64,000 nt of DNA. Source: Chondrosia reniformis. Its lineage: Eukaryota > Porifera > Demospongiae > Chondrillida > Chondrillidae. A program made the position numbers and the translations under genes. Where the stretch lies: contig OX359191.1 of NCBI GenBank assembly GCA_947172415.1, positions 1,674,001-1,738,000 on the forward strand, written 5' to 3'. Numbering within the stretch: the first letter of the stretch is position 1; every line of letters starts with the position of its first letter. The notes under the pieces are model-generated. The model was not told the origin of the DNA. It searched no databases and saw only the letters and a list, made by a program, of their open reading frames with translations. Shown here one piece after another: positions 26,310 to 63,412 of the stretch.

Positions 26310-27455
26310 AAGAAGATCCAGAAGAAGAATTCAATCAAAGTTGCCTTTAGCTTCATTATGAGCAATTAGACCTCAAAGTAGTATTAATCTGTTCACGTAT
26401 AATTACTTGCCCTGTATATATTATAGGGAATCCAGAGATATATATATCTCATTTAATTAAATGTATCTTCCATGCAAGCTTTAAGATATATAGTGTATAT
26501 ATACATTTTTATATAATTATATAAGTGGCCATTTAAAACATACATATAAACAATAAGTGGTCTGTACTGGAATTATTAAATATGAATTCTGCATCTATGC
26601 CTCTACCCTATCCGATAGTTCATAAAATAGCTCACCTAGTTGTCATCTCTTAAAGCTATATAAACAAGGGACCAAGGAAGGGAGACCAACCACGTATATA
26701 AACAAGGGACCAAGGAAGGGAGACCAACCACGTATATAAACAAGGGACCAAGGAAGGGAGACCAACTACGTATATAAACAAGGGACCAAGGAAGGGAGAC
26801 CAACCACGTATATAACATGGTTAGTAGGAGTACACCCGGGGTTAAAGGTTAAGAACTTCAAAGTACTAACATGAAATTTAAACTGTGAGGTCAGAATGTA
26901 CTGCTGAATGTGTCATATGAAAATTATAAATTGTGATAGAAAACCTAGCAGTGGTTCTCAATGAATACCAAAAACTGTGAGTATACTCCTACTAATAGTT
27001 TCTGAAGAAATCCATATGTCAGCTTTTTTAGAACGCATGAAGTATAGACTATATTATCAATAATTGTTATGGACATAGGGTATATATATGTACGAATAAT
27101 ATGGAATGGTGATGACTTATATGCTTAATTGACAAACATGCATGCAGACATCTGCTTAATAAGTAGGTATAGTGTTATATAAGTGTTAGTATTGCATGTA
27201 TGACAATTACTATATTCATGCTGAATACCACTATGTGATTTTAGGAAATTGGAGGATATCCCTTTATAAAATGCATGAGGCACAAGTTTTGGGATAGGAA
27301 TGTGTTGATATCTAAATTGGCTTCATTTGATGATCAAATAATAATGTGCCAAATTCCTATAATGTATACGTAAATAGATAGAATTACGAATGTTCTATAA
27401 ACTGTTCAGCTAATTCAGTCACACTGTAAGAATTTTCTGGAGTAGTTTAAATTTA
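26310..27455. other. Spacer upstream of sushi gene A
   Basis: AT-rich spacer between the orphan tail exons and the gene A start codon; it should hold the gene A promoter. It contains the 36-bp minisatellite listed separately and is otherwise collinear with 36550-37560 upstream of gene B. No gene is seen. Confidence 0.5.
26660..26818. repeat. 36-bp minisatellite, 4 copies (1 in the duplicate)
   Basis: Four copies of TATAAACAAGGGACCAAGGA + AGGGAGACCAACCACG. The collinear site in the second duplication unit (about 36880-36925) has a single copy, so the array expanded or contracted after duplication. The minus-strand open frame 26636-26818 is only repeat. Confidence 0.9.
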
Positions 27456-30400: not shown

Positions 30401-33400
30401 GCACAACTAACCACGTTTGTAAGGCAGATGGTACTTGGAGTGGGAAGGAACCAGCATGTAAAGGTACATTATTTGAAAGGTATTACAATCACTATATTAT
30501 AGAATAAGGTTTCTATACATCTTATATTGCAGCCATTGAATGTCAAGGCCTTACTTCTATTGAAAATGGAAATATTTATTACGATACTGGCAAGACCACT
30601 TTTATGACGCTTGCAACATATTCATGTGACACTGGATTCTTTCTGAACAGTAATGAAACAAGAGAGTGTCTCAGTGATGGTTCTTGGAACAATGTGGATC
30701 CTCAATGTTCAGGTGAGCCTTTTGTAACTCATTTAAATGGATACCTGGTCTTCATATGATTGCATCATTCTTTTGGAGACAGCTATAGACTGTGGAAGTC
30801 CTCCTCAACTGGTAAATGGAACAGTTGATGCTAGTGAGGGCACATATTATAGGAATGTAGCCAAGTACACGTGCAACGAAGGCTTTGAATTGATTGGATA
30901 TGACAGCATTTCCTGTCAAGCAAGTGGAAACTGGAGTACACTAACAGCTGAATGCAGAAGTGAGAATTTTATAAACTAAATAAAACTATGCACTGTTGTT
31001 GTTTTAATGAGTTTTTTAATGTTAACAGGAGTGAAATGTGGTAGTCTTGATAGGCTGGTCAATGGAAGGATTGACTATAGTGGACAAGAATACCTGGATA
31101 TTGCTTACTTTACTTGTAATGAAGGCTATTGGCTATTAAATGGATCTAACACATCTGTCTGTGATGAGTGTGGATTTTGGGATTCAGCTACACCAATATG
31201 TCAAGGTATGTCAATTCTAAGGAAATGATTACATACAATATTTGAGAACTTTCTGTTTATATACCAACCATACAGTTGTGGAGTGTCCAGCCTTGGAGCC
31301 TATAGCTGATGGAGATGTGATCAATACAGGAAATGATTATCAGTCTATAGCCAAATACTTGTGTAACAGTGGATATACCCTAAATGGTCCATCTGAGAGA
31401 GTGTGCCAAATTTCAGGAGAATGGAGTCTCGAAGAACCAAGTTGTGAAGGTACAGTATATTGATTTAGATATGAGAATATTTATGCATGAATGATAAAAT
31501 ATATAGCATGTTTGTATATACATATGTACTGTATATATGTGGTAAGGTGAACATGACATGATTGATCTACATATGTATATTGTAATCTGTAGTGATTGAT
31601 TGTGGCAGTCCTCCTGTGATTGCAAATGGATATGCTGACATTAGTAGAAACACAACGTACCTTTCAGTGGCCAAATACGAATGTCTAGATGGCTACTTTT
31701 TGAGCAAGAACCATCCTCTAGTGACTTGTCAGGAAGATGGGGAGTGGATTGGAGACACTCCACAGTGTCAAGGTATGTATCTGAGATGCGCAATTTCCAG
31801 TAATACCTTTTTATGCATTTTATTTTTATTATTTCCATTTATGTATGTATTCTTAATAGTTGCGGATTGTGGAGAGATAGAGGAAATTGCAAATGGTTCC
31901 ACTGACCTTGTTTTTAATAGCACTACATATCAGTCAATTGTGATATACAACTGCAGTGTTGGTTACAACTTGATTGGCCCCTCTGAAAGAAGCTGTCTTT
32001 CGTCTGGCTACTGGAATGGAACAGATCCCTTCTGTATAGGTAAGTATAGCAAATGTTAAACATATATATATCATATAACATTTATAGCTTTACCTAAATG
32101 GATATACTTATATATCATATCATTGAATTATAACTTCCATTATACGTTGTAGTTGTTGATTGTTATTCTCTTCCTGACATTGAGAATGGCAATCTGATGT
32201 ACAGCTATGGTACAGTGTTTGAGTCTACCGCCATCTATTTCTGTGATCCCGGATATGCACTGAATGGATCTGATGCGAGGTTCTGTCAGGCCAATGGAGA
32301 ATGGAATGGAACTGAACCAGCATGTAGAAGTGAGATATACACGTATATATATATAATATCTAACAATTGGTATTTTATATTAAACATATATTTAATACAA
32401 TATGTTGATCAAAATATTCATTTGTGTAACAGTTGTGGACTGTGGTATTCCTGACACTCCTGACAATGGAACAGTTCTACACAGTGCAGATACAACCTTC
32501 AAGTCACTAGCACTGTATGATTGTGATTTTGGCTATTCTCTAGTAGGACCACAATTGAGATCTTGCTTAGAAGATGGAGAATGGAGTGAAGAAGAGCCAT
32601 ATTGCCAACGTAAGGCTAAAATACATATTATAGAGAGTTAAATAATTTATATGTAACCATTGTCTCTCTGTCTCAATAATTAGCTATTGAATGTGGGCCC
32701 TCCCCGGAAATTGATAATGGATACAGATCTGGAAATAGTACAGACACCTTCTATCCTTCCAGAGCTTATTATGTATGTAATGAAGGATATGAACTAAGGG
32801 AACCAAGTTTCATAACTTGTCTGGCACATGGAAATTGGAGCGAGCCATCACCATATTGTGATAGTAGGTTTTATTGTTTGCAGCACTGTGCATATATACA
32901 TTCCACTGCATACAATAAACATAGTTATGGACTGTGGATACCCTCAACAAGTGGACCATTCAGTTGTTGCATTCACTAACAGAACGCTCTTCAATTCCAC
33001 TGCTGAATACCAGTGTGATAGTGGTTACGAGTTAATCAATGGTTCGTCAGAAAGAGTGTGCCAGTCCAATGGCACATGGAGTGGAGTAGCACCAGTCTGT
33101 GCAGGTATAAGGCAATATGGCCCTCATTCACAGTTTTTCCCTATAAGTAACAGTTAAGGGAAATTTGTAGACTATATAAATGTATAATACATTTCCATAT
33201 TTCAACTACGTATATCTATCTTGTTATATATAGTGCAAGTTACAAATTTATACACGGATGCAAGTGACTCCCAAGATAATCACACTGAGGTATATAATAT
33301 AATACGGATGCAAATGACTCCCAAAATAATCACAATCAGGTATATTAAACGCTACAAGACTTTAGCCACACTGAAATTCTCAACTGCTGCATACAGAGTA

Positions 33401-36400
33401 GTAGTCTCTACAGATCATATAAGGTTAAATACATGGCCTTCCAATTACCTTTTCACACCTAAGTATAGACTGAAGATGATGCATCTGGATGCCATTATCA
33501 GCAAAAATTCCAGTCTCATGCAGGGGATCTCAGCCAATAATCACCGCAGATTTGACTTGCCTTGAGTGTCAGCTAGGAGTACCATTGGTTGCTTGCATGC
33601 ATTCACATAAACAACAGGGTTAGAGACGATTTGGTAACTTGCACACAGGGACATAAAGGCTGGGGCCTTTAATTTATTTCATGAACAATGTCCCTTGTGT
33701 GCAAGTTACCAAATCGTCTCTAACCCTGTTGTTTATGTGAATGCATGCAAGCAACCAATGGTACTCCTAGCTGACACTCAAGGCAAGTCAAATCTGCGGT
33801 GATTATTGGCTGAGATCCCCTGCATGAGACTGGAATTTTTGCTGATAATGGCATCCAGATGCATCATCTTCAGTCTATACTTAGGTGTGAAAAGGTAATT
33901 GGAAGGCCATGTATTTAACCTTATATGATCTGTAGAGACTACTACTCTGTATGCAGCAGTTGCGAATTTCAGTGTGGCTAAAGTCTTGTAGCGTTTAATA
34001 TACCTGATTGTGATTATTTTGGGAGTCATTTGCATCCGTATTATATTATATACCTCAGTGTGATTATCTTGGGAGTCACTTGCATCCGTGTATAAATTTG
34101 TAACTTGCACTGTGTAGTACTTGATTGTATTTAAACAAGCATAATATATAACACTCCTTATTCCTACACATGGACAATTGCAAGTAAAAAATGAATAAAA
34201 ACATAAGAAGAGAAGACAGAGCTTTAATTACCAAAGTTTTAATACGGTCGACTAAACGAATTTCTTTTGCATCAGTATAGGGACAATTCTGCCTCAAAAT
34301 TAACGGGAACGTATACAAATACGCTTTATCTCACCTTCGCTACAACTCGCTTATTCGTAGCTCCTTCTCGTAGGAGAGCGTCGACTAAGACAGAGCTTAA
34401 ATTACCAAAGTACGAATTTCTTTTACATCAATATATAGCAACAATTCTGGCTTAAAATTAACATGAACGTATACAAATACGCTTTATCTAACCTTCGCTA
34501 CAACTCGCTTATTCGGTAGCTCCTTCTCGTAGGAGAGCGTCGACTAAGACAGAGCTTAAATTACCAAAGTACGAATTTCTTTTACATCAATATATAGCAA
34601 CAATTCTGGCTTAAAATTAACATGAACGTATACAAAATTTAATACGCTTTATCTAACCTTCGCTACAACTCGCTTATTCGGTAGCTCCTTCTCGTAGGAG
34701 AGCGTCGACTTGTCATAGCCGTTCTCGAAAGGATGATCTTCTTTAGCAACGAGGCGGTGACGTTTTCGCAACGTCACAAGATTCACAAAATGTGTGTACG
34801 GAGCGACATACGAAGGTGTTGGTGACGCATTCGAAGAACATCACAATACATCACCAGCTTGCGCAATCGTAACTTTGAATTCTTCATTATATCTTGATTA
34901 TTTTGCTCATTTAATTAAGCAAAACTTCGCCAGACGTTTCTTATACACATGTACCATGATATATGTTGATTTCACAGTTATCGGACAAACTGAAAATTTT
35001 TATCAATATAACACATGGTTTGCATATAAATTTCCCATAGGTTTTCTATAGTCCTATGGCCTTTTATATGCAAACTTTGTCCTCCGTTTTCTAACAAACG
35101 GAGGCCTAAATCAAAAATCCCTTAATTTAAAATGAGTTTTATACCCTAAACTTTATGATGATATGCCCATTTTGTTTCTAGGTTCTTTCTTGGAGCCATA
35201 TGAATTAATTATATTATTTATTTATTTATATTAGATTACCTTAGTATATTGTAACTTGCACTGTATATATATATATAGGAAACCTATGTATATAACTTTA
35301 TAATTACTTGCAGTTCCATTGCCACCAGTTAATGTTCAAGTAAGAGTGGTGAATAATAGCCACTTTGAAGTGTCTTGGGAGTATACTCGGGGAATATCTC
35401 GTGAATGTGAGCTTGTCTATTTCCGTCAAGAAACACAGTTTGATTTAAATGTATGTGGGATTTGCTGTATTTTTGATCTTTGTTATTAGAGGAAATTATG
35501 TAAAAGTCTGTACTATATATAAGGTTTTTATCTATACTAACCTGTAGGGAATAGTACCTCTTCCAATGAGTGAATTGGAAGCTCGTGCTCCAGAAGCAGA
35601 GAGAAGAGTATGTATATATATAAATAAAATATATATGCTCCCCCATAGGTGATCAAGTAACTGTATATATAATATTTTATATTGTGTTTCAACAGAGTGT
35701 GCTGTTGCCAAAAGACCAAAATACATACTTCACAGAAGTTGAAGAGGATGGATTGTATGTCTTCCAAGTTAGTTACGTAGCTATTCATGGAATGAACTGT
35801 GAAACATGTATGGATACATGGTGTATGCATCATACTATATGCACAGATCCCCTGTTTGTGTGTTTGTTTATGCATAACAGAAATCAACATCCACAAATTA
35901 TGGACTCAAACATATATTTAGTCTCTGGGCTATTACTATAATTATGTTCATGGTTATATCCTTTTTTCTGTGGTGTTACCAGACACACCCGAGGTAGTCA
36001 GTCATATAGATCATAGAGGTGATGTCATGTAACACAGAAATAAATCAGAGTTTGTGCTTCATTTTGAAAAAAAAAACATATTGGTCATTGTTGATACTCA
36101 TGTATATATACGAATAATGTATGGTCCACTTAATATGGTTCCTTTGATACAAACACTACTCCAATCTATGTATAGGTAAGGTGCAATAGCTCAGCAGGTC
36201 TAACAGAATTTTCAGAGACAGTTTCAGCTGCTATATCATCCCCAACTGAGGATACATGCAACGGCTTCTTTGAGTGCAACCCTGAGCTGGGTCTGGCAGT
36301 AGTGGTTCCCATTGTGGTTGTTGCAACCATACTCCTAGTACTACTCTTCTTTTGGCTCTTTTGGAAATTGTGCAAGTCCACTCCTACTGGAAGGTTAGTA

Positions 36401-36549: not shown

Positions 36550-39500
36550 AAGAAGATCCAGAAGAAGAATTCAATCACAGTTGCCTTTAGCTTCATTATG
36601 AGCAATTAGACCTCAAAGTAGTATTAATCTGTTCACGTATAATTACTTGCCCTGTATATATTATAGGGAATCCAGAGATATAATATATCTCATTTAATTA
36701 AATGTATATTCCATGCAAGCTTTAAGATATATAGTGTATATATACATTTTTATATAATTATATAAGTGGCCATTTAAAACATACATATAAACAATAAGTG
36801 GTATGAATACTGCATCTATGCCTCTACCCAATCCGATAGTTCATAAAATAGCTCACTAGTTGTCATCTCTTAAAGCTACGTATATAAACAAGGGACCAAG
36901 GAAGGGAGACCAACCACGTGTATAACATGGTTAGTAGGAGTACACTCGGAGGTTAAAGGTTAAGAACTTCAAAGTACTAACATGAAAGAGGTCAGAATGT
37001 ACTGCTGAATGTGTCATATGAAAATTATAAATAGTGATAGAAAACCTAGCAGTGGTTCTCAATGAATACCAAAAACTGTGAGTATACTCCTACTAATAGT
37101 TTCTGAAGAAATCCATATGTCAGCTTTTTTAGAATGCATGAAGTATAGACTATATTATCAATAATTGTTATGGACATAGGGTATATATATGTACGTATAA
37201 TATGGAATGGTGATGACTTATATGCTTAATTGACAAACATGCATGCAGACATCTGCTTAATAAGTAGGTATAGTGTTATATAAGTGTTAGTATTGCATGT
37301 ATGACAATTACTATATTCATGCTGAATACCACTATGTGATTTTAGGAAATTGGAGGATATCCCTTTATAAAATGCATGAGGCACAAGTTTTGGGATAGGA
37401 ATGTGTTGATATCTAAATTGGCTTCATTTGATGATCAAATAATAATGTGCCAAATTCCTATAATATATATACGTATAGATAGATAGAATTACGAATGTTC
37501 TATAAACTGTTCAGCTAATTCAGTCACACTGTAAGAATTTTCTGGAGTAGTTTAAATTTAATGATGGCTTTCCATTGGATGTTAGCATTATTGATCTTTA
37601 TGAAATCTGAGATATGGACAGCTGAAGGAGGTATTAAAATATACTTTGTCATAATACTACAGCTGTAATTAATTAATGCTGATTCTTATATACTTCAAAG
37701 TCTGCAGACAGTATCTTATATAGCCAGCTATCCTATATAGGGACTTGTAGATGACCATAGCTAAATGGCAAACCTTTATATATATTAACAATATCTCGGA
37801 CTCGAAATAATGTCACTGTCAAAGAGAAAAAGCGGAGATGACCAAGAACTACTACAAGTATCCAGTTTTTGTCCCTAACTTGCCTCCTGTCGAGCGCATT
37901 CAAATCTAAGGCTTCATATTCCACCTATCTACTTTTAGGCGATATATATATGCACCTTAGATCTATATGGTTCGTGCACTAGACTATATAAAAGGTAGAA
38001 GAAAAACGAAGAAAACTGGATTCCTGTAGCTGTTTTAATTACTTACAGGCGTTATTCGCTGCTTCAAACGACTTTCTATTAGTTAAAATCTGTTCTGGTA
38101 ACTTAATTAAATTTAATTTTGTCTTTTTGTGTCGTCCTCTGCTTATTAGAACTTACGTAGATTATCTATCCTATATAGATACTTTGTGTAAGATTATATA
38201 CACTCTCTGAGATATTCCATATATCACAGCTAAAATGAGCTACAATATATGAATGGATGTATATGTACATATCTCAGAGTGTGCATTCTATATATATTCA
38301 CAGATTGCACTGCTACTCCACTATTGGGAGGTGCTGGTTCAAATGGTGTCTTCTCAATTACTGGAACATCAGCGGGCTCCATAGTATTTTGGGAGTGTGA
38401 TCCTGGTTACCTATTATCTGGATCAAGAGTTGGAAGCTGTAACGGAACAGACTGGGTGTATCAATCTCCTGTGCAGCCAAATTGTGATACCAGTAGGCAA
38501 CTCTAACAAATTGTTGAGTATGGATCTTTAATTTGATTTTTGATTTAAAGGTTTAAATCATGCATGATCAACATATATACAAGCACGCATATTTCTATAT
38601 AGGGTCTTATATTGAAAATAGTAGTTACTCTAGATATATATACTCAAATTGATTTCTTTATCTGCATATTTTTATACCATTTCCTTCAATAGGGGTTGAC
38701 TGTGGTACTTTGGAAGATATTGAAAATGGTCAGGTAACAACAGCCTTTGGGACATTACTAGATGCAGTAGCTACTTATACCTGCAATGAGGGCTATGTAC
38801 TGGAAGGAGACACTGAGAGGACATGTCAGAGCAGTGGTAGTTGGAGTGGAAATGAACCAATTTGTAATTGTGAGTCTTCCATATCACAAGATGTGGATAT
38901 CAGTGATGAATATTAATGATTCACCTGCAGCAATCGACTGTGGTAGTCCACCTCCCGTACAAAATGGAAAGGTCGACCAAAGTGATGGAACAACTTTAGA
39001 TTCGGTCTTAACCTATTCATGTGACAGTGGCTATGAGTTGGACAATACTAACAGGGCAACAAGAACATGTACCAGGGATGGAACCTGGTCATTCACTGCT
39101 CCACAGTGTGTTGGTATGTTCCTGGTTACATGTTTGACAGAAATGTCATTGAATATATGTTTACTTTTATTTAGGTGTCGAATGTGGAAACCTTGCATCC
39201 CTGCCAAATGGTGATACTACACTGACTGCTGGTACCTCTTACCCATCAGTGGCTGTGTTCTCCTGTGAATCTGGCTACAACTTGAAGGGCACTCCGTTAG
39301 CTATTTGTGGAGTTGATGGACAATGGAGCAGTGAAGTACCAGTCTGTGAAGGTAAACAAAGTTCAATGATGATAATGATGTGTGTATATTACTTTGTTCT
39401 CACTATGTACAGTATATACATTTACAACTATGTAGCACAAATATAAGTGTTTTAAGATGTCAGATTGGTTGATCTCCATTACTATAGAGGTGGATTGTGG

Positions 39501-42500
39501 AGAGCCAGCTACAGTAGAGGGAGCCATCATAGATCACTTCCTTGGAACTACACTTGGCAAGTTTGCACACTACAGCTGTGTAGAAGGGCATAGGCTGATT
39601 GGATTACAAACAAGGACATGTCTGGCTGATGGAACTTGGAGCGGAGATGAGCCATACTGTGAAGGTGAATATACCTTGTAGCTATAGAGGAAATTTAGAA
39701 AGGTTGTGTCATGAGTATAGCACTTATTTAGTTGTAAGATGTGAAGAAGAGGCACCAGTAAGGAATGGAGATGTGCACTACTCTAATGGACTTTTCTATG
39801 ACTCCACTGCAAGCTACATCTGTGATGAAGGCTTTGAATTGATTGGAACCAGTAGCAGAGTATGCATGGATACGGGTGCATGGAGTGAAACTGCACCTCA
39901 ATGTCAGAGTGAGTATATTTATTAGTCTTTTCTTTCCCATCATTATATACTAAAGAGAATACATTTTTACTTTGTGTATAGTCATTGACTGTAACAGTCC
40001 TCCATCAGTGGTGAATGGCATATTTGATGTGAGTAGAGGGACAACCTATCAATCTGTTGCTCGCTACATATGCAATGAGGGCTACCAGTTGGTGGGTATT
40101 CCATTGGTAACTTGTCAGGAAGATGAGCAGTGGAGCGGACCATCACCAACCTGCATGAGTAAGAAGTATTATGCGTATGTAGTTGTATATACGTACGTAC
40201 GTACGTATGTCATATTTTATAAATCATTGAGCTATATATATATAAATGCTTATTCCATGAAGTGAAGTCGTCCTTTTTTATCAAATGATCAATGTCTTAT
40301 ATATTTTGACACAATTTCCGGATCTCTTCTCCCTTTCATTTTTAAAGTTACTGTGTTTTTTAACTTCATAATCGTGTTATTGTAGTTATTGATTGTGGTG
40401 AACCTTGGACTATTACGAATGGCACCTATGAGGTGGTTTCAGGAAGTACTGAGTTCAGCTCTGAAATTAGGTATTCTTGTGAAGAAGGGTACTATCTTGT
40501 GGGCACAGCTAACCATGTGTGTAAGGCAGATGGTACTTGGAGCGGGAAGGAACCAGCATGTAAAGGTACAATATTTGAAAGGTATTACAATCACTATATT
40601 ATCGAATAAGGTTTCTATACATCTTATATTGCAGCCATTGAATGTCAAGGCCTTACTTCTATTGAAAATGGAAATATTTATTACGATACTGGCAAGACCA
40701 CTTTTATGACGCTTGCAACATATTCATGTGATACTGGATTCTTTCTGAACAGTAATGAAACAAGAGAGTGTCTCAGTGATGGTTCTTGGAACAATGTGGA
40801 TCCTCAATGTTCAGGTGAGCCTTTTGTAACTCATTTAAATGGATACCTGGTCTTCATATGATTGCATCATTCTTTTGGAGACAGCTATAGACTGTGGAAG
40901 TCCTCCTCAATTGGTAAATGGAACAGTTGATGCTAGTGAGGGCACATATTATAGGAATGTAGCCAAGTACACATGCAACGAAGGTTTTGAATTGATTGGA
41001 TATGACAGCATTTCCTGTCAAGCAAGTGGAAACTGGAGTACACTAACAGCTGAATGCAGAAGTGAGAATTTTATAAACTAAATAAAACTATGCACTGTTG
41101 TTGTTTTAATGAGTTTTTTAATGTTAACAGGAGTGAAATGTGGTAGTCTTGATAGGCTGGTCAATGGAAGGATTGACTATAGTGGACAAGAATACCTGGA
41201 TATTGCTTACTTTACTTGTAATGAAGGTTATTGGCTATTAAATGGATCTAACACATCTGTCTGTGATGAGTGTGGATTTTGGGATTCAGCTACACCAATA
41301 TGTCAAGGTATGTCAATTCTAAGGAAATGATTACATACAATATTTGAGAACTTTCTGTTTATATACCAACCATACAGTTGTGGAGTGTCCAGCCTTGGAG
41401 CCTATAGCTGATGGAGATGTGATCAATACAGGAAATGATTATCAGTCTATAGCCAAATACTTGTGTAACAGTGGATATACCCTAAATGGTCCATCTGAGA
41501 GAGTGTGCCAAATTTCAGGAGAATGGAGTCTCGAAGAACCAAGTTGTGAAGGTACAGTATATTGATTTAGATATGAGAATATTTATGCATGAATGATAAA
41601 ATATATAGCATGTTTGTATATACATATGTACTGTATATATGTGGTATGGTGAACATGACATGATTGATCTACATATGTATATTGTAATCTGTAGTGATTG
41701 ATTGTGGCAGTCCTCCTGTGATTGCAAATGGATATGCTGACATTAGTAGAAACACAACGTACCTTTCAGTGGCCAAATACGAATGTCTAGATGGCTACTT
41801 TTTGAGCAAGAACCATCCTCTAGTGACTTGTCAGGAAGATGGGAAGTGGATTGGAGACACTCCACAGTGTCAAGGTATGCATCTGAGATGCGCAATTTCC
41901 AGTAATACCTTTTTTATGCATTTTATTTTTATTATTTCCATTTATGTATGTATTCTTAATAGTTGCGGATTGTGGAGAGATAGAGGAAATTGCAAATGGT
42001 TCCACTGACCTTGTTTTTAATAGCACTACATATCAGTCAATTGTGATATACAACTGTAGTGTTGGTTACAACTTGATTGGCCCCTCTGAAAGAAGCTGTC
42101 TTTCGTCTGGCTACTGGAATGGAACAGATCCCTTCTGTATAGGTAAGTATAGCAAATGTTAAACATATATATATCATATAACATTTATAGCTTTACCTAA
42201 ATGGATATACTTATATATCATATCATTGAATTATAACTTCCATTATACGTTGTAGTTGTTGATTGTTATTCTCTTCCTGACATTGAGAATGGCAATCTGA
42301 TGTACAGCTATGGTACAGTGTTTGAATCTACCGCCATCTATTTCTGTGACCCCGGATATGCACTGAATGGATCTGATGCGAGGTACTGTCAGGCCAATGG
42401 AGAATGGAATGGAACTGAACCAGCATGTAGAAGTGAGATATGCACGTATATATATATAATATCTAACAATTGGTATTTTATATTATACATATATTTAATA

Positions 42501-43870
42501 CAATATGTTGATCAAAATATTCATTTGTGTAACAGTTGTGGACTGTGGTATTCCTGACACTCCTGACAATGGAACAGTTCTACACAGTGCAGATACAACC
42601 TTCAAGTCACTAGCACTGTATGATTGTGATTTTGGCTATTCTCTAGTAGGATCACAATTGAGATCTTGCTTAGAAGATGGAGAATGGAGTGAAGAAGAGC
42701 CATATTGCCAACGTAAGGCTAAAATACCTATTATAGATAGATAGTAAATATATATATACGTATATATAGTATATATTGTCTTTATATCTCATGAATTAAT
42801 TAGCTATTGACTGTGGGCCCTCGCCAGAAATTGATAATGGATACAGATCTGGAAATAGTACAGACACCTTCTATCCTTCCAGAGCTTATTATGAATGTAA
42901 TGATGGATACGAACTAAGGGTACCAAGTTTTATAACTTGTCTGGCACATGGAAACTGGAGCGAGCCATCACCATATTGTGATAGTAGGTTTTACTGTTTT
43001 ACGTATTTTGATACATTCCACTGTATACAATATACATATATAGTTATGGACTGTGGATACCCTCAACAAGTGGACCATTCAGTAGTTGAATTCACTAACG
43101 GAACGCTCTTCAATTCCACTGCTGAATACCAGTGTGATAGTGGCTACGAGTTAATCAATGGTTCGTCAGAAAGAGTGTGCCAATCCAATGGCACATGGAG
43201 TGGAGTAGCACCAGTCTGTGCAGGTATAAGGCAATATGGCCTTCATTCACAGTTTTTCCCTATAAGTAACAGTTAAGGGAAATTTGTAGACTATATAAAT
43301 GTATAATACATTTCCATATTTCAACTACGTATATCTATCTTGTTATATATATAGGAAACCTACGTATATCACTTCATAATTATTTGCTGCAGTTCCATTG
43401 CCACCAGTTAATGTTCAAGTAAGAGTGGTGAATAATAGCCACTTTGAAGTGACTTGGGAGTATTCTCGGGGAATATCTCGTGAATGTGAACTTGTCTATT
43501 TCCGACAAGAAACACAGTTTGATTTAAATGTGAGATTTGCTGTATTTTTTATCTTTGTTATTAGAAGAAAGTCTGTACTATAAGGTTTTTCATCTTGTAG
43601 GGAATAGTACCTCTTCCGATGAGTGAATTGGAAGCTCGTGCTCCAGAAGCAGAGAGAAGAGTATGTATATGAATAAAATATATATGCTCCCCCACAGGTG
43701 ATCGAGTAACTGTATATATAATATTTTATTTGGTGTTTCAACAGAGTGTGCTGTTGCCAAAAGACCAAAATACATACTTCACAGAAGTTGAAGAGGATGG
43801 ATTGTATGTCTTCCAAGTTAGTTACGTAGCTATTCTTGGAATGAACTTTGAAATATATATGGATGTATGA
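35993..43870 (+). repeat. Tandem segmental duplication, unit 2
   Basis: Second copy of the unit starting at 25742: tail exons of gene A (36176-36549), spacer, then gene B through its third FN3 exon, after which similarity fades at about 43870. Exons and introns differ from unit 1 only at scattered bases and microsatellite lengths. Confidence 0.9.
36550..37560. promoter_or_regulatory. Spacer and presumed promoter of sushi gene B
   Basis: Collinear with 26310-27455. It holds one copy of the 36-bp minisatellite unit and no gene. Because the spacer is duplicated with the gene, A and B probably share regulation. Confidence 0.45.
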
Positions 43871-45684: not shown

Positions 45685-48600
45685 CTACTTTCTAGTCTTT
45701 CCCTCTGAATTCCTCGATTCTAAAGGAGATCACAGTGACCAAAGAGAGGAATTAGTTCAAATAGTATCTCAGGCATTTATAAGCCTTCATTACTAAAAAA
45801 TAACTAATGGATGCAAACACTCACTCAACAAAGGTAAAAATCTTCTAAATGGAAAGTGTCCATATGTGGTCCTGTATCCTTCCAAAGTGTAAGCTAATGC
45901 AACGTAATATTGTGTCTCCACTTCATTAGATATTCTTTCATATGTCTGTGTCATCTGTGCTATCAGGAGATTGGTCAAAACGATCACCAAAAAGAACAGG
46001 AACACGATGTACACCGAGTATCCAAAACTGAAATAAAATCAATGACACATAATGTATATATTTACATTCGTATGTAGCAGTCAACATGGGAGTCTCAGGG
46101 ATATATTAGTTTTTGAAGATGGTGACTAAAAGAGTAAGCGATATGACACATGCACGCTACTGTATTACAATACAGTGGTATAATACCAGTTAAAGTTTAT
46201 GCATTGCCTAAAGGTAATAAAGTACATTAGAAAGCAAGGTTTGGTGGTGAGGTAAGTAATATCATGGGAGCAATTAACTTTTCTGGGAGAAGGGGATAAA
46301 AGTGGCAATGAAAACTCCCATGGGGATTTTCCAGGTTTCTATAAGACCCTTTTGTTTTGGTGATAATGTTGTGATATTTAACTTACAAATTTAAGCCAAT
46401 GTAATTTCCCATTTCATCATTTGCAAAATATTGAATCTGGTTACCATCCACAAGTAATCGGATACCAAGGAATACTACATCCCAAGGATAGCTGAGATAA
46501 CAGAAATTATTGTCTCTAACATTTCATATCAACATAAATGTACTATTAACACAAGACTCACAGCGTGTCTAAAGGATTTCTAGACATATCCTTAAGGACT
46601 CTACCATCAGAAGTGACCACTACGCCAGCTCTCAAAGCCAAATAAAAGGATCCCATGAATATGAACAGCACAATAGCAAAGAAGAGCAGAAAACGGCTAA
46701 TATCTCTCTTGCATATTTTGATCACAGACCAAAAGTAAATTCCTACTGGCCTACAAAAGAAGAAAGCAAAACACTTACAAATGTAATGTAAACAAACATA
46801 AACAAGCTTATAAGTATGTAGTGAAAGATATGTAGTATTACAATGTACATTATATATTATAATACCTCTAATATTCACATACATGTACAGTATATGGATA
46901 TCTGTATAGTCTCCATGCCTCTGGCCTATAACTTGTATATTAAACATATGGTATTGCAACACTACCCAGTAAACTAGCTATATAGCATTTTTATGTAACC
47001 TGTACTTAAGATTATGTTGATATGTATAAACTCACTTGTATACAGTGATGTACCAAAAGATCTTCAATGCATTAAACAGAAAGGCAAATGAAGCCAGCCA
47101 CCACTGCACCGACGAAGCTACAATACAGGGTAGGTTGATGTCCACTGTAGTTAGGTTGACGTCCACTGTAGTTAGGTTAACGTCCACTGTAGTTAGGTTA
47201 ACTTGATCAGGAGATTCACAAAGACCAACACCAGTGGAACCACACCAGAAGGTTGCAAAACGAAATGATATTAACAAAAGTGGAAATACCAATGAAAAGA
47301 CTTGTATCCAGGAGAAAGGCTTCAGAAAGTAATCTTTTTTTAGTCTGCAGAGTAACAGAAACTTACATTGCACAAATGTGAATGGGATGTAAAAGATATA
47401 TATTGCCCTTTCAATCATGTGGGTCACCAGTGACTTCTAGTTTAATTACTAACTTATTACACATAATTTTAAAACTATTAACTTAATATTTATGCATACA
47501 TTACGTATATAGTTAAGATATACGTATATAGTTAAGATATACGTTCGTATATTTTTAAGTTAAATTCACCAAAGAAACATTTTTCTGCCATTAATCAATA
47601 ATTGCATTCTAATCTCAAGTATTAATGGATTAAGGAGGTGCTCTGGGTACTGAAGAATGCTCTCTTTGAACTTGAGTTGGATATATTATCCATATACGTA
47701 TTTCAATGTTTTGTAAAATACTAGCCGAACCACCTCATACCCTTTAAATTCCCTGTCATAATACTATATGCACTTAATATCACACTTACAGATATCTATA
47801 TACAAAGGCAGAACTAGAGTAGGTCCATAGAATATAATAAACCAAAAACCGATAATTTTATGTCCATATAAATAAAGAAAAACAAGTCTGCATAATGTTT
47901 CATAAACCAACATTTACAGTAAGTCAATGATACCTGATGAGAGTCTGAATTTGTTTCATTATTGATATAAACAAGGAGATCAGGAACAGAAATTCCAGAA
48001 AGGCTCTGAACCCGTCATAAGGTTCAGGGTAGCACCCTGGGTTGTCTAGTCCAGGTCGTGCAGCCACTAACAATGCAGTTGTAAGAATTATCATTTGCAA
48101 GAAGTAGAAAAAGAAATGCACCCTGAAAAGAAAGATAAGTTTACAAATAACTTCAAAACATTACAAAGCTAAAAATGTACATAAGTAACTTACCAGTGAT
48201 AGTATCGTATAAACTGCCACTTCCAATGCAACAAGGATTGTATTGCTTCATGACTTGCCATCACGTTTGACTACATACACAAATGGAAATTAAGTAAAAT
48301 TGCTTTAATTATGAATTAAAACTGCATAAAAATGAACAATTGCCTCAATAAAATTCAATCAATTGGATTGTACATGTGTTAGGAGACTAACCAAGAGTAC
48401 TGAAATTATCAACTTAATTAATCTCCCGTCATTATCTAGTCTAGCTGCTAGCCCCCACTTCATTATTATATGTATGTGATGATGACGAGAAATAGGGTTT
48501 GCCTTGATTAAGCAGACAAGACAGTTATGGACTGAAACATGAACTTTAAACTACATGGTTCACCTTTGTCACTGAACACTGTCAAGCAGTTGGACAAGAT

Positions 48601-54600: not shown

Positions 54601-57600
54601 CTGTAATGCCTTATAAAATTATTAATACTTTTAAGATACATAATGATGGTGAGGATACAGCACTTAAACACAGTCATAAATTGTGCTTACACAATCCAGC
54701 CATTTCTCTCTATCATTTTGGCTAAGTGATTCGCAATCTGAAATAACCTCTTCCAATCCCCAATAAGCAGCTTCATGAAGTGGAGTTCTGCCAAACTAAC
54801 AAAGTAAATAGTAATTGTCAAAGTAACATCAAATGTCATGGCAAATCTCCCAAATAGACCAGTGGTACTATGCATGGAGAGGATAGTCAAATGGACTATG
54901 CACATCATTGACGTTGTATGTTAAAATAAGAAATAAGACTACCATAGGTACGTATAGATGTGTATGTCAAAGTGAGGTATTAACTGACTAACAAAAAGTA
55001 CAATTCAAAGAGTGTGCACAGTTTTATACCTTATCTAGTGTATATATATAGTATATAAAGGTTGACATATCTTGTCTATAAAATGGTGACATACCTTGTC
55101 CTTTGCTGTCATTTCTGCCCCTTTTGCCCTCAGGTCCAGTACTACTTTGCTTCGGTCCCCAACAACACAAGTTGGCAAGGAGCATAGTACATGCAGCGGA
55201 GTTCTTCCAAGCTAAAGATGATACGTACGTACGTACATAGAGCTTTCAACAGCATACATTTTACTAATGTCCAATGTATACGTACATGTAGTGCAATATA
55301 TTTCAGTTCTATAGCACATATATACTACCTTGTTCTTGGAATTGACATCTGACATGTCTACAAGATTATGGAAGGTACTCTTTTCATCTGCTGTCATTCT
55401 TTCTGTAGCTACTAGGGCTAATTTCATTAAGTAATGAAGTACTGTGTTTCCAAGTTTATCTCTGATTTGACAATGTTCTTTGGTTGTGTCTGCTTCTAAC
55501 AACTTCCCTACAATCTTCCAGTTACTGTTAATAACAGCCCAGTGCAATGGTGTCCTTCCATACTGTAAATATCAGTAAGACAGTGGTATGCTTTTAATAT
55601 ACTCTCTATATTACAATGTGACCCCTATATAGGCATATATGTAGCATTATATATTAGGACAGATAGGTGTAGTACGTAAGTATGGAGTTAGCTGATTGGG
55701 TCATGTTGCTTGCTCTACTGTTGATAACCCTTGCAGGAGTTGTCTTGTTGAACATGTGTGCGTTTGTTATCCAAATTACTGTAGAGGACTTACCATATCA
55801 GTTTGACAATGTGAAGTTTTCACTGCATTCATCATTTCCTTAAAGGAATGTACACTCCCTTTGATGGCAGCAATATGAAGTAGTGTTTGGCCATGCTATG
55901 TAGATACAAGTGCACATTTAAAATAAATGATGCATGCGGCATTGATTTACTGTTTCCATTATACAAATATATAGCCATATCATATATATATGCAGTAAAG
56001 ATGTATGATTACCTTGTTAGTTATTTTTAGATGGGCCAAAGGAAATAGATGTTTGCAAGAATCTCGAATGTCCATCATTCCTAAACTACAAAGGCATTCA
56101 GCTACAGTAAACAGCAGTGTGGCATCTTCTGCGACTTGACTGAGAATAGTTTCTTGTTGATCCAACAACCTTAGTAGCCCAATCACACAGCGTCTTATGT
56201 CCTCTGAGATATCTTGAGGAATCCTGGGTAGACACTTTAACCTTTCAGCCACATGGTGGACAACTCCACAACAATCAGCTTTTCGATTGATCAACTCTTC
56301 CATCAAGTACCTCATCTAATGTTGTCACATGCAGCAAGCAATAAAACTATAACTTGACTTATTATGAAAAATCTAATACACCATTTTCCTACATGCTATG
56401 CCTACGTACTCTGTAAAAAAGCCTATAGGGCACTAAACCTGGAGAGAGCTTTGGATGAAGACACAGTATGTACGTAAGTCTAGACTGTGAAGATATCTAC
56501 GAATGTATACAATATAAAACACACTACTTACAGCAAATCTGTTCATCAACCCTTGACCCTCGTGCACCAGAGGCGTCATTGTAGCATTAGCACAGTATAG
56601 CAATGCAGACTCCAAGTCCCATCCTGTTATGCCAAGCAAGTGATCCACTAGCTCTAATACATTTGGCTCACTACTTTGAGCTGCACTTTCAAATTTAAGA
56701 GCTATGTTAGAGTCAGACAGCGAGGACTCCTGTCTGATCAGGGGCTGACGACTATATTGCAATTCTTTGCGACTTTGCTGCTTTTGAAATTTGGGAAATT
56801 CATCATTACTTTCTACATTCACCTGCACGTGCACAGTAAAATGTAGAATTACCAAGTAATTTTTATAAACTTATAGGCATCATCCAGAGACGTACGTAGG
56901 TGCATTATCCCTTAATATATACTATATGATTTGGCTTAAATTGTACCTGTCACAAGTTCTGTGGGTATGAAGAGAGTTACGTAGGTGTATCAAAATGAGG
57001 AAGAAGTTAAAACCATTGTATGTATTTTCAATTTTCTACCATTTTGTACTTTTAATTTCTTCATTCTTCTAATCCATTCTTCCTCAGAATATAAGCCATT
57101 ACTCAAAACTACATCAAATCTTTCTCTAAATAGTCCTAATTTCTCGGTTACTCCTTTGACAGTAACTCCATGCAAACGCAGAGTGTACAAAACTTTTGAT
57201 TCATAATCCTTTTTACTGAAGCCATATCCATTGACATGGGCTCCCTTGAAGACCAATCGTTCTACAAGCCTTGTTCCAACCTCTTCTCCTCCAAACTTTG
57301 CTGCCCAGTGAAGAATGGATATTTTTCCGCTATGATGTCTTTGGACATGCTCCCTGTTGGGATCTGCTCCTTCACCAAGTAACAGGGCAATCACACATTC
57401 AACCTTTGAACACAATTTTAAATTTTAAATACGTGTACGTATGTATATACGTATATAATCATAAAATGTAATACGTACATATACTGTAACTGTAACTGTG
57501 TCATTTAAATACTTACTAAATGCAAGTCAACTGCCTTTTCTTTTTCTTCACAAAAGTTACAAAACATACTGAGGGCCTTATGAATATCATTTCCTGAATC

Positions 57601-60600
57601 AATCAAGATCTCATCCTTTAGCTTTCGTAACTTGGTCAAACAATGCTCAGGTAGCTCAGGTAGCTCAGGTACGCTAACAACTGAACATTCAGTTACAGCA
57701 TTCTTGATCTGGAAGGACAACAGTAAAGTACCTCAAAGTAGAGACTTACAGCTACATTACAAAGTTTTACTATAGCTAATTGAATAAATTCTTTTTGGTA
57801 GCTAAGATCATAAATTTAAACATCTCAAAACTGTTACTAATAGGCAACAGAATTAATAACTGTAAACAACACAAGCTAAAGTATTTATGTAGACATTCTG
57901 TTTACCAAAATACTCTGACAAATTTCTATGTCTACTAAACTTACAATTTGTAGGAATTGATTGGCTTCTTGCAGCTCTTTTACTGTATTCCACATCTTTT
58001 CACTGCTCTCAGCAAGACAATATTGCAAGTCAGGAAGTGTTGAATTTCGCTTCATTTTTTTCACTAAACCAGTCTGAAGTAAACACAGTTGAGACTTCTA
58101 ATAAATTCACATCCAAAAATCAGTGAATTCATGCAGATCATATATATACATACATGTATGTGTGTGAACATAATCTCACTGCAACTAACAGATTTTTTTG
58201 GTGGGAAACTGAAGCGCTTCTGGTTGGCTGGCAGATCTATACTATCTGGTACACTCTCTGTATGTTCTTCATTTTCAGGTCCACTTATTTCAGGTTTTAT
58301 AGCAACCTGCGTAGCTTCCTGTAATAGAAATAATGTCTATGTACATAAGTGGCAATACATAAATACATACATAATCAACTCTGCATTTGGCCATGCCAAA
58401 TACATACATATGATCACCACAAACCTGACTGTGTTGCATGGCCTGGAGGTATTTATCAAGCTCCCTGGCCAAGTCTGGATGCACATTCTCTTTTGCTCGT
58501 TTTCTCAGTTCAACACTTCTCTGCACAAGCAAATATAAGAGTTTATAAAACTCAGTTAATATTTAGAGGTAAACCTTTGAAACAACTGTACACAAGATGT
58601 AAGTATATATCTGTGTCCATACGTACATACGTACATAGGTTATAGGTTATAGGTTATATGTTCATCTTTTTCAACTTTCTATAAGTCATATGACAGACAT
58701 TAAAAAGCAAAATTAAAAAAAAAATTGGAATGTATCATGTGTAATAGTCAGTATCACCCCTTTTCAATAACACAAATTTACAAAAATTCAAACACTCTAG
58801 CAATATAATACACCAAGACTTAGACTGAGGGACCTACAGTGTCTTAGACTGAGGGACTTACAGTGTCTTAGACTGAGGGACTTACAGTGTCTTAGACTGA
58901 GGGACTTGCAGTGTCTTAGACTGAGGGACCTACAGTGTCTTAGACTGAGGGACTTACAGTGTCTTAGACTGAGGGACTTGCAGTGTCTTAGACTGAGGGA
59001 CTTACAGTGTCTTAGACTGAGGGACTTGCAGTGTCTTAGACTGAGGGACTTACAGTGTCTTAGACTGAGGGACCTACAGTGTCTTAGACTGAGGGACTTA
59101 CAGTGTCTTAGACTGAGGGACCTACAGTGTCTTAGACTGAGGGACTTACAGTGTCTTAGACTGAGGGACTTGCAGTGTCTTAGACTGAGGGACTTACAGT
59201 GTCTTAGACTGAGGGACTTACAGTGTCTTAGACTGAGGGACTTACAGTGTCTTATACTGAGGGACTTGCAGTGTCTTAGACTGAGGGACTTACAGTGTCT
59301 TATACTGAGGGACCTACAGTGTCTTAGACTGAGGGACTTACAGTGTCTTAGACTGAGGGACTTGCAGTGTCTTAGACTGAGGGACTTACAGTGTCTTAGA
59401 CTGAGGGACTTACAGTGTCTTAGACTGAGGGACTTACAGTGTCTTATACTGAGGGACTTGCAGTGTCTTAGACTGAGGGACTTACAGTGTCTTAGACTGA
59501 GGGACCTACAGTGTCTTAGACTGAGGGACTTACAGTGTCTTAGACTGAGGGACTTACAGTGTCTTAGACTGAGGGACTTGCAGTGTCTTAGACTGAGGGA
59601 CTTACAGTGTCTTAGACTGAGGGACCTACAGTGTCTTAGACTGAGGGACTTGCAGTGTCTTAGACTGAGGGACTTACAGTGTCTTATACTGAGGGACCTA
59701 CAGTGTCTTAGACTGAGGGACTTACAGTGTCTTAGACTGAGGGACTTGCAGTGTCTTAGACTGAGGGACTTACAGTGTCTTAGACTGAGGGACCTACAGT
59801 GTCTTAGACTGAGGGACTTACAGTGTCTTAGACTGAGGGACTTGCAGTGTCTTAGACTGAGGGACTTACAGTGTCTTATACTGAGGGACTTACAGTGTCT
59901 TAGACTGAGGGACTTGCAGTGTCTTATACTGAGGGACCTACAGTGTCTTAGACTGAGGGACCTACAGTGTCTTAGACTGAGGGACCTACAGTGTCTTAGA
60001 CTGAGGGACTTACAGTGTCTTAGACTGAGGGACTTACAGTGTCTTAGACTGAGGGACTTACAGTGTCTTAGATTGAGGGACTTACAGTGTCTTTTGCCGT
60101 CATTATACCTCTTCCACCTAGTTTCTCAATGCAAGCTTTCAGTACATCCCAACTGGTACATTTCTTTATGCCATTAGAGACAAAGTCACAAAGTGGTATG
60201 TAATCCTACAATATACACATAATGACAGAATCTTATAATACAGGGGTTATACTAATAATTACTGTATCTTAAAGTGTTACCCTGTATATCATTAGATGTA
60301 GAGATTGTAGTTGTAGTAGAGTTGCTAGGCTAGAGTTGCTCCGATAAGGCCTTCTAGTTCATTGGTATAGTTGTGAGTACGTATAGTCTACTGTTCTAAG
60401 ACATTTCTTTCAGAATTTTATAATATCACAGAAAAATGGGTTTTTCTAACTGAGCCAAATTATCTTTAGATTGTTCATCTTTCATCTTTGAGCATCTAGA
60501 GAAGCAGCTTTGGTATCTCTCTTGTGAAGCATCTGACAAAAGAATTACCAAAATGTCTCTCTAAAGATGATGCCCAAAAAGTTGAAAGATGAATTCTTTA

Positions 60601-63412
60601 AATGATATTATAGTAACAAGTGCATTTATAAGTTTCCCATTCTGACCCTCTTGTCCTTCCACTCTTCAACATTCTTAATTGTAATCAGTTCATCCTTACA
60701 ATTCTTTATCACTTCAAATCTTCCCCAGTAGGCTGCTTCATGAAGAGGAGTGCGACCAAACTAAGCAAAATTAAAATGTGCATGTCATCAAATAAACATA
60801 TATATATGTAGCTTACCTAATCCAATAATCCCCCAACACACAATGTATATATAGATAATATTATATATGTATGAAAGGTTTACATAAATACTAACATGTA
60901 CTACGTGTTAGTTGATATATGTACTATTTATGTAAACCATATTTTCAGTACACAATCACTGTTAAATTGGTTCAAGAGAGACATTTCAAGACCTGAATAA
61001 TATTAGAACAAATACGTACATTGAGTAGGCTGAAAAACAATAACAGCAAGTTGTCAAGTTGAGACTTCCGTAACTTAAACAATATGGAGGTCTCCAACAG
61101 GTTGTCTGCATGGTCTATATACCAGTAGTATAGGCAGGTGCTGGAAGAGAACCTGGCTAACTAATTAACCAACAATTTACATGCATATGGATATACCTAT
61201 TAAGCTACACAGGATCAAATCTCAGGTTTCAGATGTCATGAAACCTATGTAATACTCTTTGGAGTGCCAGGTTTCAAAAGGTATGATAGTACGTATGTGT
61301 GAAAAACTTGAAACCCATGAAATTAATCTATTAGTGCATACTTGAGCACACTGGCAGTTCAAGAAGTTTCGGATAGGTTTCATGCCATATATTAACACTG
61401 AGATTTAATCCAGTGACAAAAAATTTGGATTCATTAAACTACATATATGTATATTAAGTAGATAAGCATATATGTACGTACGTATATACTGACCATAATA
61501 TAGATGTATAGTGTACATATAATTCTTATATTTACAACTTGATCATATATATATAGAGAGTTTTGCGGTAAGCCTACAATTTCAATAGTAACCAGTATCT
61601 GACCATTATAAAATTCTTACATTATCTTTCATTTGGAGAAAGTGACAACCGGATCGCACATAGAGCTTAGTGATAACCCTACAGTTGTCATGGTAACCTG
61701 TACCACAAGCCCAATGGAGGGGAGTCTTGCCATCCTATTATATATAAAATGCATCTTAACAAGTAACTGCATAAGAAATGATGTGTTATTTAGTTTCATG
61801 TACTTGATTCTCATTTAATGTGATAGCATGGTTCTTCATTAGAAGATCAATAATCTCATAATTTCCATTGAGTACACTGTAGTGTAGTGCTGTATTTCCT
61901 CCTCTATCCTGGACGTTGGGATCTGCCTTTTGTTTGAGCAAGAATTCAGCAACTTTTGTCTTTCCCTGCAATGCTGCCCAATGTAATGCTGTCCTTCCAG
62001 TGTGCTGTATGCATTAAAAACAACAGTCAAAACAGTTATACATCTAAGCATATAAAGATAGATGTAAAATCAGTGTAAAAAAGACTACAGAATGGTACTG
62101 CATAACACAAATAGCAAGTTGGAATTGATCAAGCTTACAAGTTCAAAACTTTGATAAATGCATAATATACCTCATCAATCTTATCCTTTGAATCACTTTC
62201 ACAACTTTTGTCTAATAAAAAGCTGACCTATATGCATAGACATAGAGGTACATAGGTACTAGGTAAGAACATTGCTGATACAGTATATTGAATACACTGC
62301 AGTATACTGAATCTGTACATATGCAAAACATTGTAAATTCCTTAAATGTACATTGTATAATAACCATATGCAACCAAGTGCAGTTGTTGTAATGAACAAG
62401 ACACTTTTGAGCAAATTACACAGCTTGTACGTATTTAAAAGGTGCAGGACGTTTCAACCTGGGGGCCTTTGTCAACTGTAATACAGAATATTGCAGTGCA
62501 AGCAACCTCCTATTGATGAACATAAGACTTACAGCAAAGGAATTCATAACTATATCATTTTCTTCAGGATGCCCAGGATCAGGTTTCCATCTTGCAACAT
62601 ATATTATTGGTACCATCCCTGTACACTGCAGTTCCTGCCACAGACTATCTCTTCCAGCTATCTGCATATCAAATACAAAATAATACCCAAAATTGATGAG
62701 TGAGTCATTATTACTGGCAATAGAAATGGAATATATATACGCAAACCTTAACAAGTCATATACTGCACATTTGACAGAAGTTAAACTGAAGAGGTCTGTT
62801 GGACACTCTTAGTATACCTTGACAGAAACAAATTCCTCCCAAAATTGGATAATCATCATGCAGACCTATAATAACCCCATGCATGGCACAACACAAAAGT
62901 ATATATATAGAACCTATATAGAAACACTATATTTACATATTTTCCCCTTTTATCTTATGTAACGCAATGCATGGATTCAATTAATGTTGGGTTGAAATTG
63001 ATTAAAGGCAAAAGTCTTCATTATGTGTCTTCGCAAAGTATAGTAGGATCCCTTTTGTAACTGATCTATATATATTTATAGATCGAACTCAGCTCTAATA
63101 TTGATCATGAAAGACACCAGATTTTCATTTTCAATATTTATATTTCGTGTTTAGATAACCTCTACTTTGTTTACAAACCTTTAGTTTTTTCTTCCACTGT
63201 TCTTCTTGGTCATGGCCAAACAGGACGTCTTTGTATTTCTGCTCAAACGCCTTCAACTTATCTTCAACAGTCTGCAATGGAACAAGTACGTTTTTGAAAC
63301 CAAGGTTTTCAATGGGCGTTCCCGTAGCAGGTGATGGTGTTAGAAGGCTTCTTCCCGACTCAGGATCACGTCCAGTTGGATTACAGTTTCCTCTTCTGTT
63401 GCTATTTCCCAT
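45685..63412 (-). CDS. Ankyrin-rich TRP-like ion channel (37 exons, about 2017 residues)
   Basis: Exons: 63412-63179, 62661-62533, 62227-62171, 62004-61804, 61734-61621, 60760-60647, 60205-60086, 58520-58425, 58318-58190, 58073-57945, 57708-57517, 57403-57050, 56822-56532, 56315-56013, 55895-55794, 55562-55329, 55211-55095, 54795-54691, 54245-54123, 53918-53862, 53373-53230, 53173-52961, 52791-52495, 52401-52306, 52060-51929, 51593-51477, 50998-50926, 50460-50173, 50060-49903, 49127-48900, 48270-48194, 48122-47934, 47344-47036, 46750-46562, 46491-46387, 46027-45825, 45719-45685. Ankyrin repeats occur in blocks (HTGRTALHWAALQGKTKVAE, FGRTPLHEAAYWG twice, YGRTPLHWAV, LNQTPLHLAAEAGD). Six membrane helices follow: S1 FLQMIILTTALLVAA, S3 QVFSLVFPLLLISF, S5 FFAIVLFIFMGSF, pore LYPWDVVFLGIRLLVDGN, S6 FFLVIVLTNLLIAQM. 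It is most like animal ankyrin-TRP channels; the subfamily is not assigned. Several donors (exons 6 and 12) are weak. Confidence 0.87.
47126..47205 (-). repeat. In-frame 21-bp coding repeat giving three NLT sequons
   Basis: Three tandem 21-bp units in exon 33 of the channel encode VNLTTVD three times, followed by a degenerate fourth (INLP). They fall in the loop between S3 and S4, which is extracellular if the ankyrin half is cytosolic, so each unit offers an N-linked glycosylation site (N-L-T). Confidence 0.9.
48806..48870 (-). repeat. Dispersed repeat R1, copy 3 (inverted)
   Basis: Reverse complement of the repeat at 2798-2877 (CATCCAAAGCTCTCACCAGG, then CCTACAGGCCTT). It lies in an intron of the channel gene. 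Confidence 0.55.
51060..51125. repeat. Dispersed repeat shared with 2085-2150
   Basis: GAAGTCGAAAGATGATCCTT, then CAAAAGATAAGTTTG and TTAGAAGAAATCC, match 2087-2145 closely. It is intronic and non-coding. Confidence 0.6.
53567..53688 (-). repeat. tRNA-derived SINE, copy 3 (degenerate)
   Basis: Collinear with the copies at 3078-3200 and 44769-44944 (ATATTCTCAAACGTCA, AACAATTGCTCG, GGTTATATATAACAACCAGTG), but the A and B boxes are worn. It is intronic. Confidence 0.45.
56390..56462 (+). repeat. Dispersed repeat R1, copy 4
   Basis: CATGCTATGCCTACGTACTC, then CCTATAGGGCACTAAACCTG and GAGAGCTTTGGATGAAGA, match copies 1 and 2. It lies in an intron between channel exons 13 and 14. Confidence 0.6.
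58816..60096 (-). repeat. 24-bp minisatellite built from a splice donor, about 53 copies
   Basis: About 1.28 kb of a 24-bp unit. On the gene (minus) strand the unit is GACACTGTAAGTCCCTCAGT + CTAA. Channel exon 7 ends in GACACT|GTAAGT at 60086/60085, so its own donor is unit one. Later units repeat a donor that is GTAAGT, GTAGGT or GCAAGT depending on one or two variable bases. Each unit also holds CCCTCAG, an acceptor-like string. The plus-strand frame of 423 residues across it is pure repeat. Confidence 0.95.
60868..60945. repeat. Small palindromic element
   Basis: GGTTTACATAAATA near 60877 and its complement TATTTATGTAAACC near 60925-60938 form arms of a short foldback, with further pairing inside (CTAACATGTAC / ATATGTACTA). 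It is intronic in the channel gene. Confidence 0.55.
61208..61415. mobile_element. MITE, CACAGGATCA family, copy 2
   Basis: Begins CACAGGATCAAATCTCAGG and ends in a worn complement (GAGATTTAATCCAGTG), with AGGTTTCAT/ATGAAACCT arms inside. It shares about 120 bp with the inverted copy at 43893-44044 (CAGGTTTCAAAAGGTATGA, CACTTGAGCAC-like). It is intronic. Confidence 0.6.

Follow-up and report, generated by a model that had tools for sequence, protein, structure and literature searches.

The closest precedent for the array described here is the donor minisatellite of the human gene IFI6, which the title of Turri et al. 1995 describes as carrying multiple splice donor sites (cited in PMC4526556, PMC2572611). 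Two of its downstream repeat units are reported to serve as splice donors, with three mRNAs described (PMC4526556). Like the index array, which we found in the sponge Chondrosia reniformis, the IFI6 minisatellite is described as a series of tandem units that span an exon-intron boundary, with a donor in each (53 of 53 units in the sponge). The IFI6 unit is reportedly 12 bp long, and use of a later donor is said to lengthen the protein in frame. The index array has a longer unit of 24 bp and 53 copies, and in-frame lengthening is absent from it, each unit carrying a TAA. It also differs in that downstream units of IFI6 are reported as used donors, whereas those of the sponge array are candidate donors.

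Other relatives share part of this anatomy. Variable tandem repeats at exon-intron boundaries have been reported in human paralogues and linked to novel introns and alternative transcripts (PMC2812944). As described there, they resemble the index array in being minisatellite-sized, located at a boundary, and present in one member of a pair; they differ from it in that the sponge intron is ancestral. Tandem duplication across splice-site sequence is likewise involved in the intron gain described by Rogers 1989 (cited in PMC2812944), but no new intron arose in the sponge gene, since the intron of its paralogue matches in position and phase. In another sponge, minisatellite indels have been reported among intron alleles, some confined to certain populations (PMC2267160). 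Among the titles listed in the literature searched, none concerned donor-anchored arrays in sponges. The anatomy is already known in kind; what is added here is a stop in every unit, the copy number, and recurrence within one genome.

The index array lies in a window of 64,000 nucleotides (C3:1674001-1738000), the whole stretch of DNA that was analyzed; the genome searched comprised 117,379,552 bases in 15 contigs. Positions below are those of the window unless a contig precedes them.

60647 to 60760, minus strand: preceding exon, an ankyrin repeat (FGRTPLHEAAYWG...), 79% identical in the C9 paralogue
60086 to 60205, minus strand: exon 6 of the model, DYIPLCDFVSNGIKKCTSWDVLKACIEKLGGRGIMTAKDT, ending GACACT in phase 0; the C9 paralogue matches it at 65% identity and has its donor at the same codon
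60080 to 60085, minus strand: first, exon-adjacent donor GTAAGT, the sole donor giving the full protein
58819 to 60093, minus strand: minisatellite, 24 bp x 53.1; 8 exon bases first, then donor copies through the intron
58521 to 60085, minus strand: intron 6, 1565 nt, of which 1267 nt are array; the paralogue intron is 626 nt and has no array
58425 to 58520, minus strand: next exon, RSVELRKRAKENVHPDLARELDKYLQAMQHSQ, phase 0, after the acceptor TTGCTTGTGCAG; a homologous exon is present in the paralogue
C7:8233300-8235255 (L095, L096), minus strand: PTP4A-like gene with a donor array

The host gene was modelled by hand on the minus strand, from an ATG exon (63412-63179) through 62661-62533, 62004-61804, 61734-61621, 60760-60647, 60205-60086, and 58520-58425 to further exons. 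An earlier note on this DNA had placed the array after exon 7 of a channel gene. With the ATG exon counted first, the array-bearing exon is the sixth in our model. Ankyrin repeats were the only Pfam matches in the gene pieces scanned, and none of the 27 genome matches listed for Ion_trans falls in the window, so the channel identity was rejected. On C14, one Ion_trans match and a distant ankyrin relative are on the same strand, roughly 10 kb apart. At a downstream ankyrin exon (55052-55100, minus strand), a 24-bp stretch of exon end and donor (GACAAG|GTATGT) is duplicated into two copies.

TRF delimited the array at 58819-60093, with 53.1 copies, 95% matches, 0% indels, and a score of 2333. 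The 58816-60096 given previously located it correctly, with each end three bases too wide. On the minus strand the array resolves into 53 head-to-tail units, and all 52 spacings are exactly 24 nt, bearing out the description of about 53 tandem copies of an exon/donor junction. The final 8 bases of the exon (60093-60086) form the start of the first unit. Seven unit types are present, in 27, 10, 9, 3, 2, 1, and 1 copies. A usable GT or GC donor is kept in all 53 units, as GTAAGT in 29 and as the variants GTAGGT and GCAAGT, both anticipated in the note, in 12 each. A TAA in the exon frame likewise occurs in 53 of 53 units, as had been claimed. The acceptor-like CCCTCAG attributed to each unit is found in 52 of 53, the exon-adjacent unit reading CCCTCAA. 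Unit types agreed more at even than at odd distances, with a maximum of 0.51 at lag 8 (p 0.0175, 2,000 shuffles), which suggests growth by blocks of several units.

Several other identities for the array were rejected. An assembly artefact is unlikely because HiFi reads were reportedly used for the assembly, whose primary consensus quality is given as 69.8 (PMC12181767). The unit is unique to the array, with 53 of its 54 genome matches (up to three mismatches) lying inside it, and an introner or dispersed repeat was rejected on this ground. The array reads open in another minus frame and in one plus frame, but a coding repeat was rejected, as the exon frame is fixed by the paralogue.

The C9 paralogue also establishes the age of the intron relative to the array. 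The exon end of the paralogue, LGGKDMLMSQNI|GTAGGT, aligns without gaps to LGGRGIMTAKDT|GTAAGT of the index gene, in phase 0 in both, and a homologous next exon follows in the index gene and the paralogue (EATSLIKLAKENV / RSVELRKRAKENV). Because the paralogue intron falls at the same codon and phase, the index donor is genuine, and the array is anchored on a real exon end (GACACT/GTAAGT), as the earlier note had held. No tandem repeats were found by TRF (minimum score 50) in the 9.9-kb paralogue locus, and the best ungapped match of the array unit to the paralogue donor region is 12 of 24. As the paralogue has an intron at this position but no array, the intron came before the array; by the same comparison, intron gain by tandem duplication was rejected. 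The intron thus predates the gene duplication, and the array grew afterwards, being seen in one of the paralogues. Over 203 aligned codons, dN/dS between the paralogues was 0.25 (NG86) or 0.31 (YN00), and third codon positions differed most. The coding exons of the pair are kept.

The first in-frame stop lies 15 nt past the first donor. With a TAA in the exon frame of every unit, only the first donor therefore gives the full protein, in agreement with the earlier proposal. The spliceosome probably takes this exon-adjacent donor. Exon definition is one possible route to such a choice. Commitment during transcription of the intron may be another: in human cells, the upstream 5' splice site is reported to be tethered to RNA polymerase II via U1 during intron synthesis (PMC8316553).

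Donor-anchored arrays recur elsewhere in the genome. Within the window, a 37 bp x 13.5 array (12409-12909, minus strand) starts 27 nt inside an exon ending LVTCLKYLSILK|GTAGGT, and its donor +1 G is lost in 3 of 13 junction copies. A peptide search found no paralogue of this exon (2 of 2 matches were the gene itself), so its end was called from the frame, the acceptor, and the exon that follows. Among nine further 10-kb regions there was one array spanning an exon end, a 35 bp x 3.2 repeat at L043 8246-8357. Whole-genome searches were performed with triple motifs of AGGTAAGT and MAGGTAWGW. The former yielded 9 arrays; flanks were inspected for 8, all but the AGGT-type simple repeat C12:7224118, and 4 of these 8 followed an exon by eye (C3:88585, C10:497742, C12:6143873, and C13:193085). 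The array at C13:193085 begins 25 nt past another in-frame donor. With MAGGTAWGW, at least 16 arrays were found among the first 100 of 230 matches, and 4 of 16 among the matches listed followed an exon by eye (C1:1924773, C4:8598056, C5:7754948, and C7:8234602). These calls by eye are subjective and were made from an open frame, an acceptor, and a recognizable protein.

Pfam identified the C4:8598056 exon as DNAPKcs_CC5 (E 2.7e-15) and gave no match for the exon ends at C13:193085 and C12:6143873, the joined C10:497742 pair, or the short C3:88585 one. In 10 of 10 further arrays checked, a reading frame continued past the donor runs into a stop within 70 nt; all three phases were tried for C3:88585 and C10:497742, where phase is not fixed by homology. 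The alignment of the C7 exon to solved PTP4A1 extends to the arginine of HCVAGLGR (best E 7.7e-13), and Pfam phosphatase models match it only below their cut-offs. The intron of this PTP4A-like gene, 567 nt long and placed within HCVAGLG|R, consists largely of a 22-bp donor array whose first donor is near C7:8235129. It contains 21 exact GGGCAG|GTATGT copies, the last one 45 nt from the acceptor, after which the next exon continues RAPVLVAIALIE.

Whether donors and arrays overlap more often than by chance, a point on which the earlier note had made its proposal depend, was assessed by an approximate test. Motif counts gave no excess. AGGTAAGT formed 9 arrays from 4,833 sites, against 22 from 7,824 for the reversed control (Fisher P 0.36) or 11 once TGGA-type repeats were removed from that control (Fisher P 0.65). 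On C1-C5, MAGGTAWGW gave 15 arrays, as did its reversed control, 7 of whose 15 belonged to a 16-bp family or to 13-bp-type satellites; in 174 kb, the motif occurred at 25 sites and the reversed control at 22. Exon ends, called by eye, were present at 8 of 24 array sites versus 19 of 41 single sites (P 0.43), or at 8 of 20 array sites without four simple-repeat arrays (P 0.78). This count drops one site entered twice and three L043-array sites, and its single sites include two copies in a segmental duplication and one (55094) in the two-copy donor duplication. A codon-usage score for exon ends, which separates poorly, showed no difference between arrays and single sites (P 0.76). Its threshold was passed by 1 of 24 arrays and 2 of 41 single sites, and the index exon falls below it.

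A small direct sample hinted at an excess. The sample was 9 arrays (period at least 15, at least 3 copies, mean period 34) in 173.8 kb, not counting 13-bp satellites and one AT-rich 17-bp array; this sequence includes two paralogue loci and the window, which had been selected because of its array. Combined with the reported annotation of 17,340 genes and 7.20 exons per transcript (PMC12181767), these values give an expectation of 0.031 donors per founding unit and of ~190 donor arrays in the whole genome, whereas extrapolation of the motif counts gives ~130. Three of the 9 sampled arrays were donor-anchored, versus 0.28 expected, and without the index array 2 of 8, versus ~0.25 (P about 0.027). 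With the larger counts flat and the small sample hinting at an excess, we lean toward a donor-array frequency set by chance.

The index array is probably a near-neutral minisatellite that was founded by chance on a donor, grew in an existing intron, and is spliced at its first copy. Its anchoring on a real donor, an intron older than the array, a stop in each unit, and recurrence at other donors are observed features of the DNA. Use of the first donor, neutrality of the array, and chance in its founding we infer. The founding 24-bp duplication would have happened to span the 5' splice site, taking in 8 nt of exon and 16 nt of intron. Growth would have followed within the pre-existing intron after the paralogues separated, partly in multi-unit blocks. 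The array would persist because it is nearly neutral, with the exon and first donor intact, and splicing at the exon-adjacent donor would remove the 52 further copies along with the intron. This account is favored by the array-free paralogue with its matching intron, the dN/dS of the coding exons, the uniqueness of the unit, the even-distance agreement of unit types, the stop in every unit, arrays on other donors in other genes, including the PTP4A-like gene, and by motif-level counts at chance. Selection could also explain why 53 of 53 units retain a donor, but 3 of 13 copies in the 12409-12909 array lack the donor +1 G. The index array needs no special function.

The donor-anchored share of the direct sample (3 of 9, or 2 of 8 non-index arrays) counts against the near-neutral reading and would favor donor-directed birth, in which 5' splice sites are hot spots of tandem duplication (e.g. 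through R-loops or replication slippage) and their arrays form a class of their own. The two-copy donor duplication at 55052-55100 points the same way. We nevertheless consider donor-directed birth unlikely: whole-genome donor-motif arrays showed no excess over reversed motifs, real exon ends were not in excess among motif arrays, and the sampled window was picked for its array.

A regulatory role for the array appears improbable. Later donors would be partly used, adding an in-frame stop, and the level of full-length mRNA would be tuned by truncation or nonsense-mediated decay, the competition buffer of the earlier note. The TAA in every unit, the 29 donors identical to the first with 24 variants, and the reported use of downstream IFI6 units as donors (PMC4526556) are consistent with this model. 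However, the C9 paralogue works without an array, unrelated genes carry similar arrays at about chance frequency by motif counts, and the PTP4A exon end is built in the same way, in a gene whose conserved enzyme would suffer from loss of full-length mRNA. A U1 binding platform, also raised in the earlier note, would be a further, conjectural role. Recursive splicing or 11-nt microexons, with units as stepping stones for piecewise removal of the intron, can draw on a donor in each unit, a CAG 11 nt before the next donor in 52 of 53, and a CTAAG in each that presumably resembles a branch site motif, but is hardly credible, since classical recursive sites are juxtaposed AG|GT and here CAG and donor stand 11 nt apart, the tract before CAG is merely CCCT, a single-unit intron would be 13 nt, and an 11-nt microexon shifts the frame.

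How the spliceosome chooses when identical donors compete has long been asked, for the most part with artificial constructs. Natural sponge genes offer long series of near-identical donors, with the full protein available from the first alone, and the value of the index array lies in this natural experiment on donor choice. We tentatively raise, as a rather doubtful idea, that a "first donor wins" rule is strict in sponge pre-mRNAs: among dozens of near-identical donors the exon-adjacent one would be chosen, donor minisatellites would grow unseen, and their length may act as a dial where the rule leaks. Were it true, the index and PTP4A arrays would both be natural experiments on 5' splice site choice. 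RNA-seq of Chondrosia reniformis, reported as published (PMC12181767), could separate transcription order, exon definition, and acceptor nearness.

Other repeats were recorded in the window and beyond. A direct duplication of ~6.5 kb (26766-33232 and 36876-43351) has 97.5% identity, and a near-palindrome of ~880 bp (33232-34111) matches its own reverse complement at 96.8%. At 47131-47199, on the minus strand, a 21-bp x 3.3 repeat reads as an open coding repeat, VNLTTVD. The string CACTGTA is common to the units of three unrelated window arrays (58819-60093, 9256-9575, and 47131-47199). A 13-bp satellite of the TTGTATGTACTAG type covers 20,113 of the 90,000 bases of nine 10-kb regions and is present in three of them (L042, L054, and L056). 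The 16-bp repeat family (AGAATGGAC-type) occurs at four places within 42 kb (C3:3666812-3708691) and also at C5:6141151-6141431.
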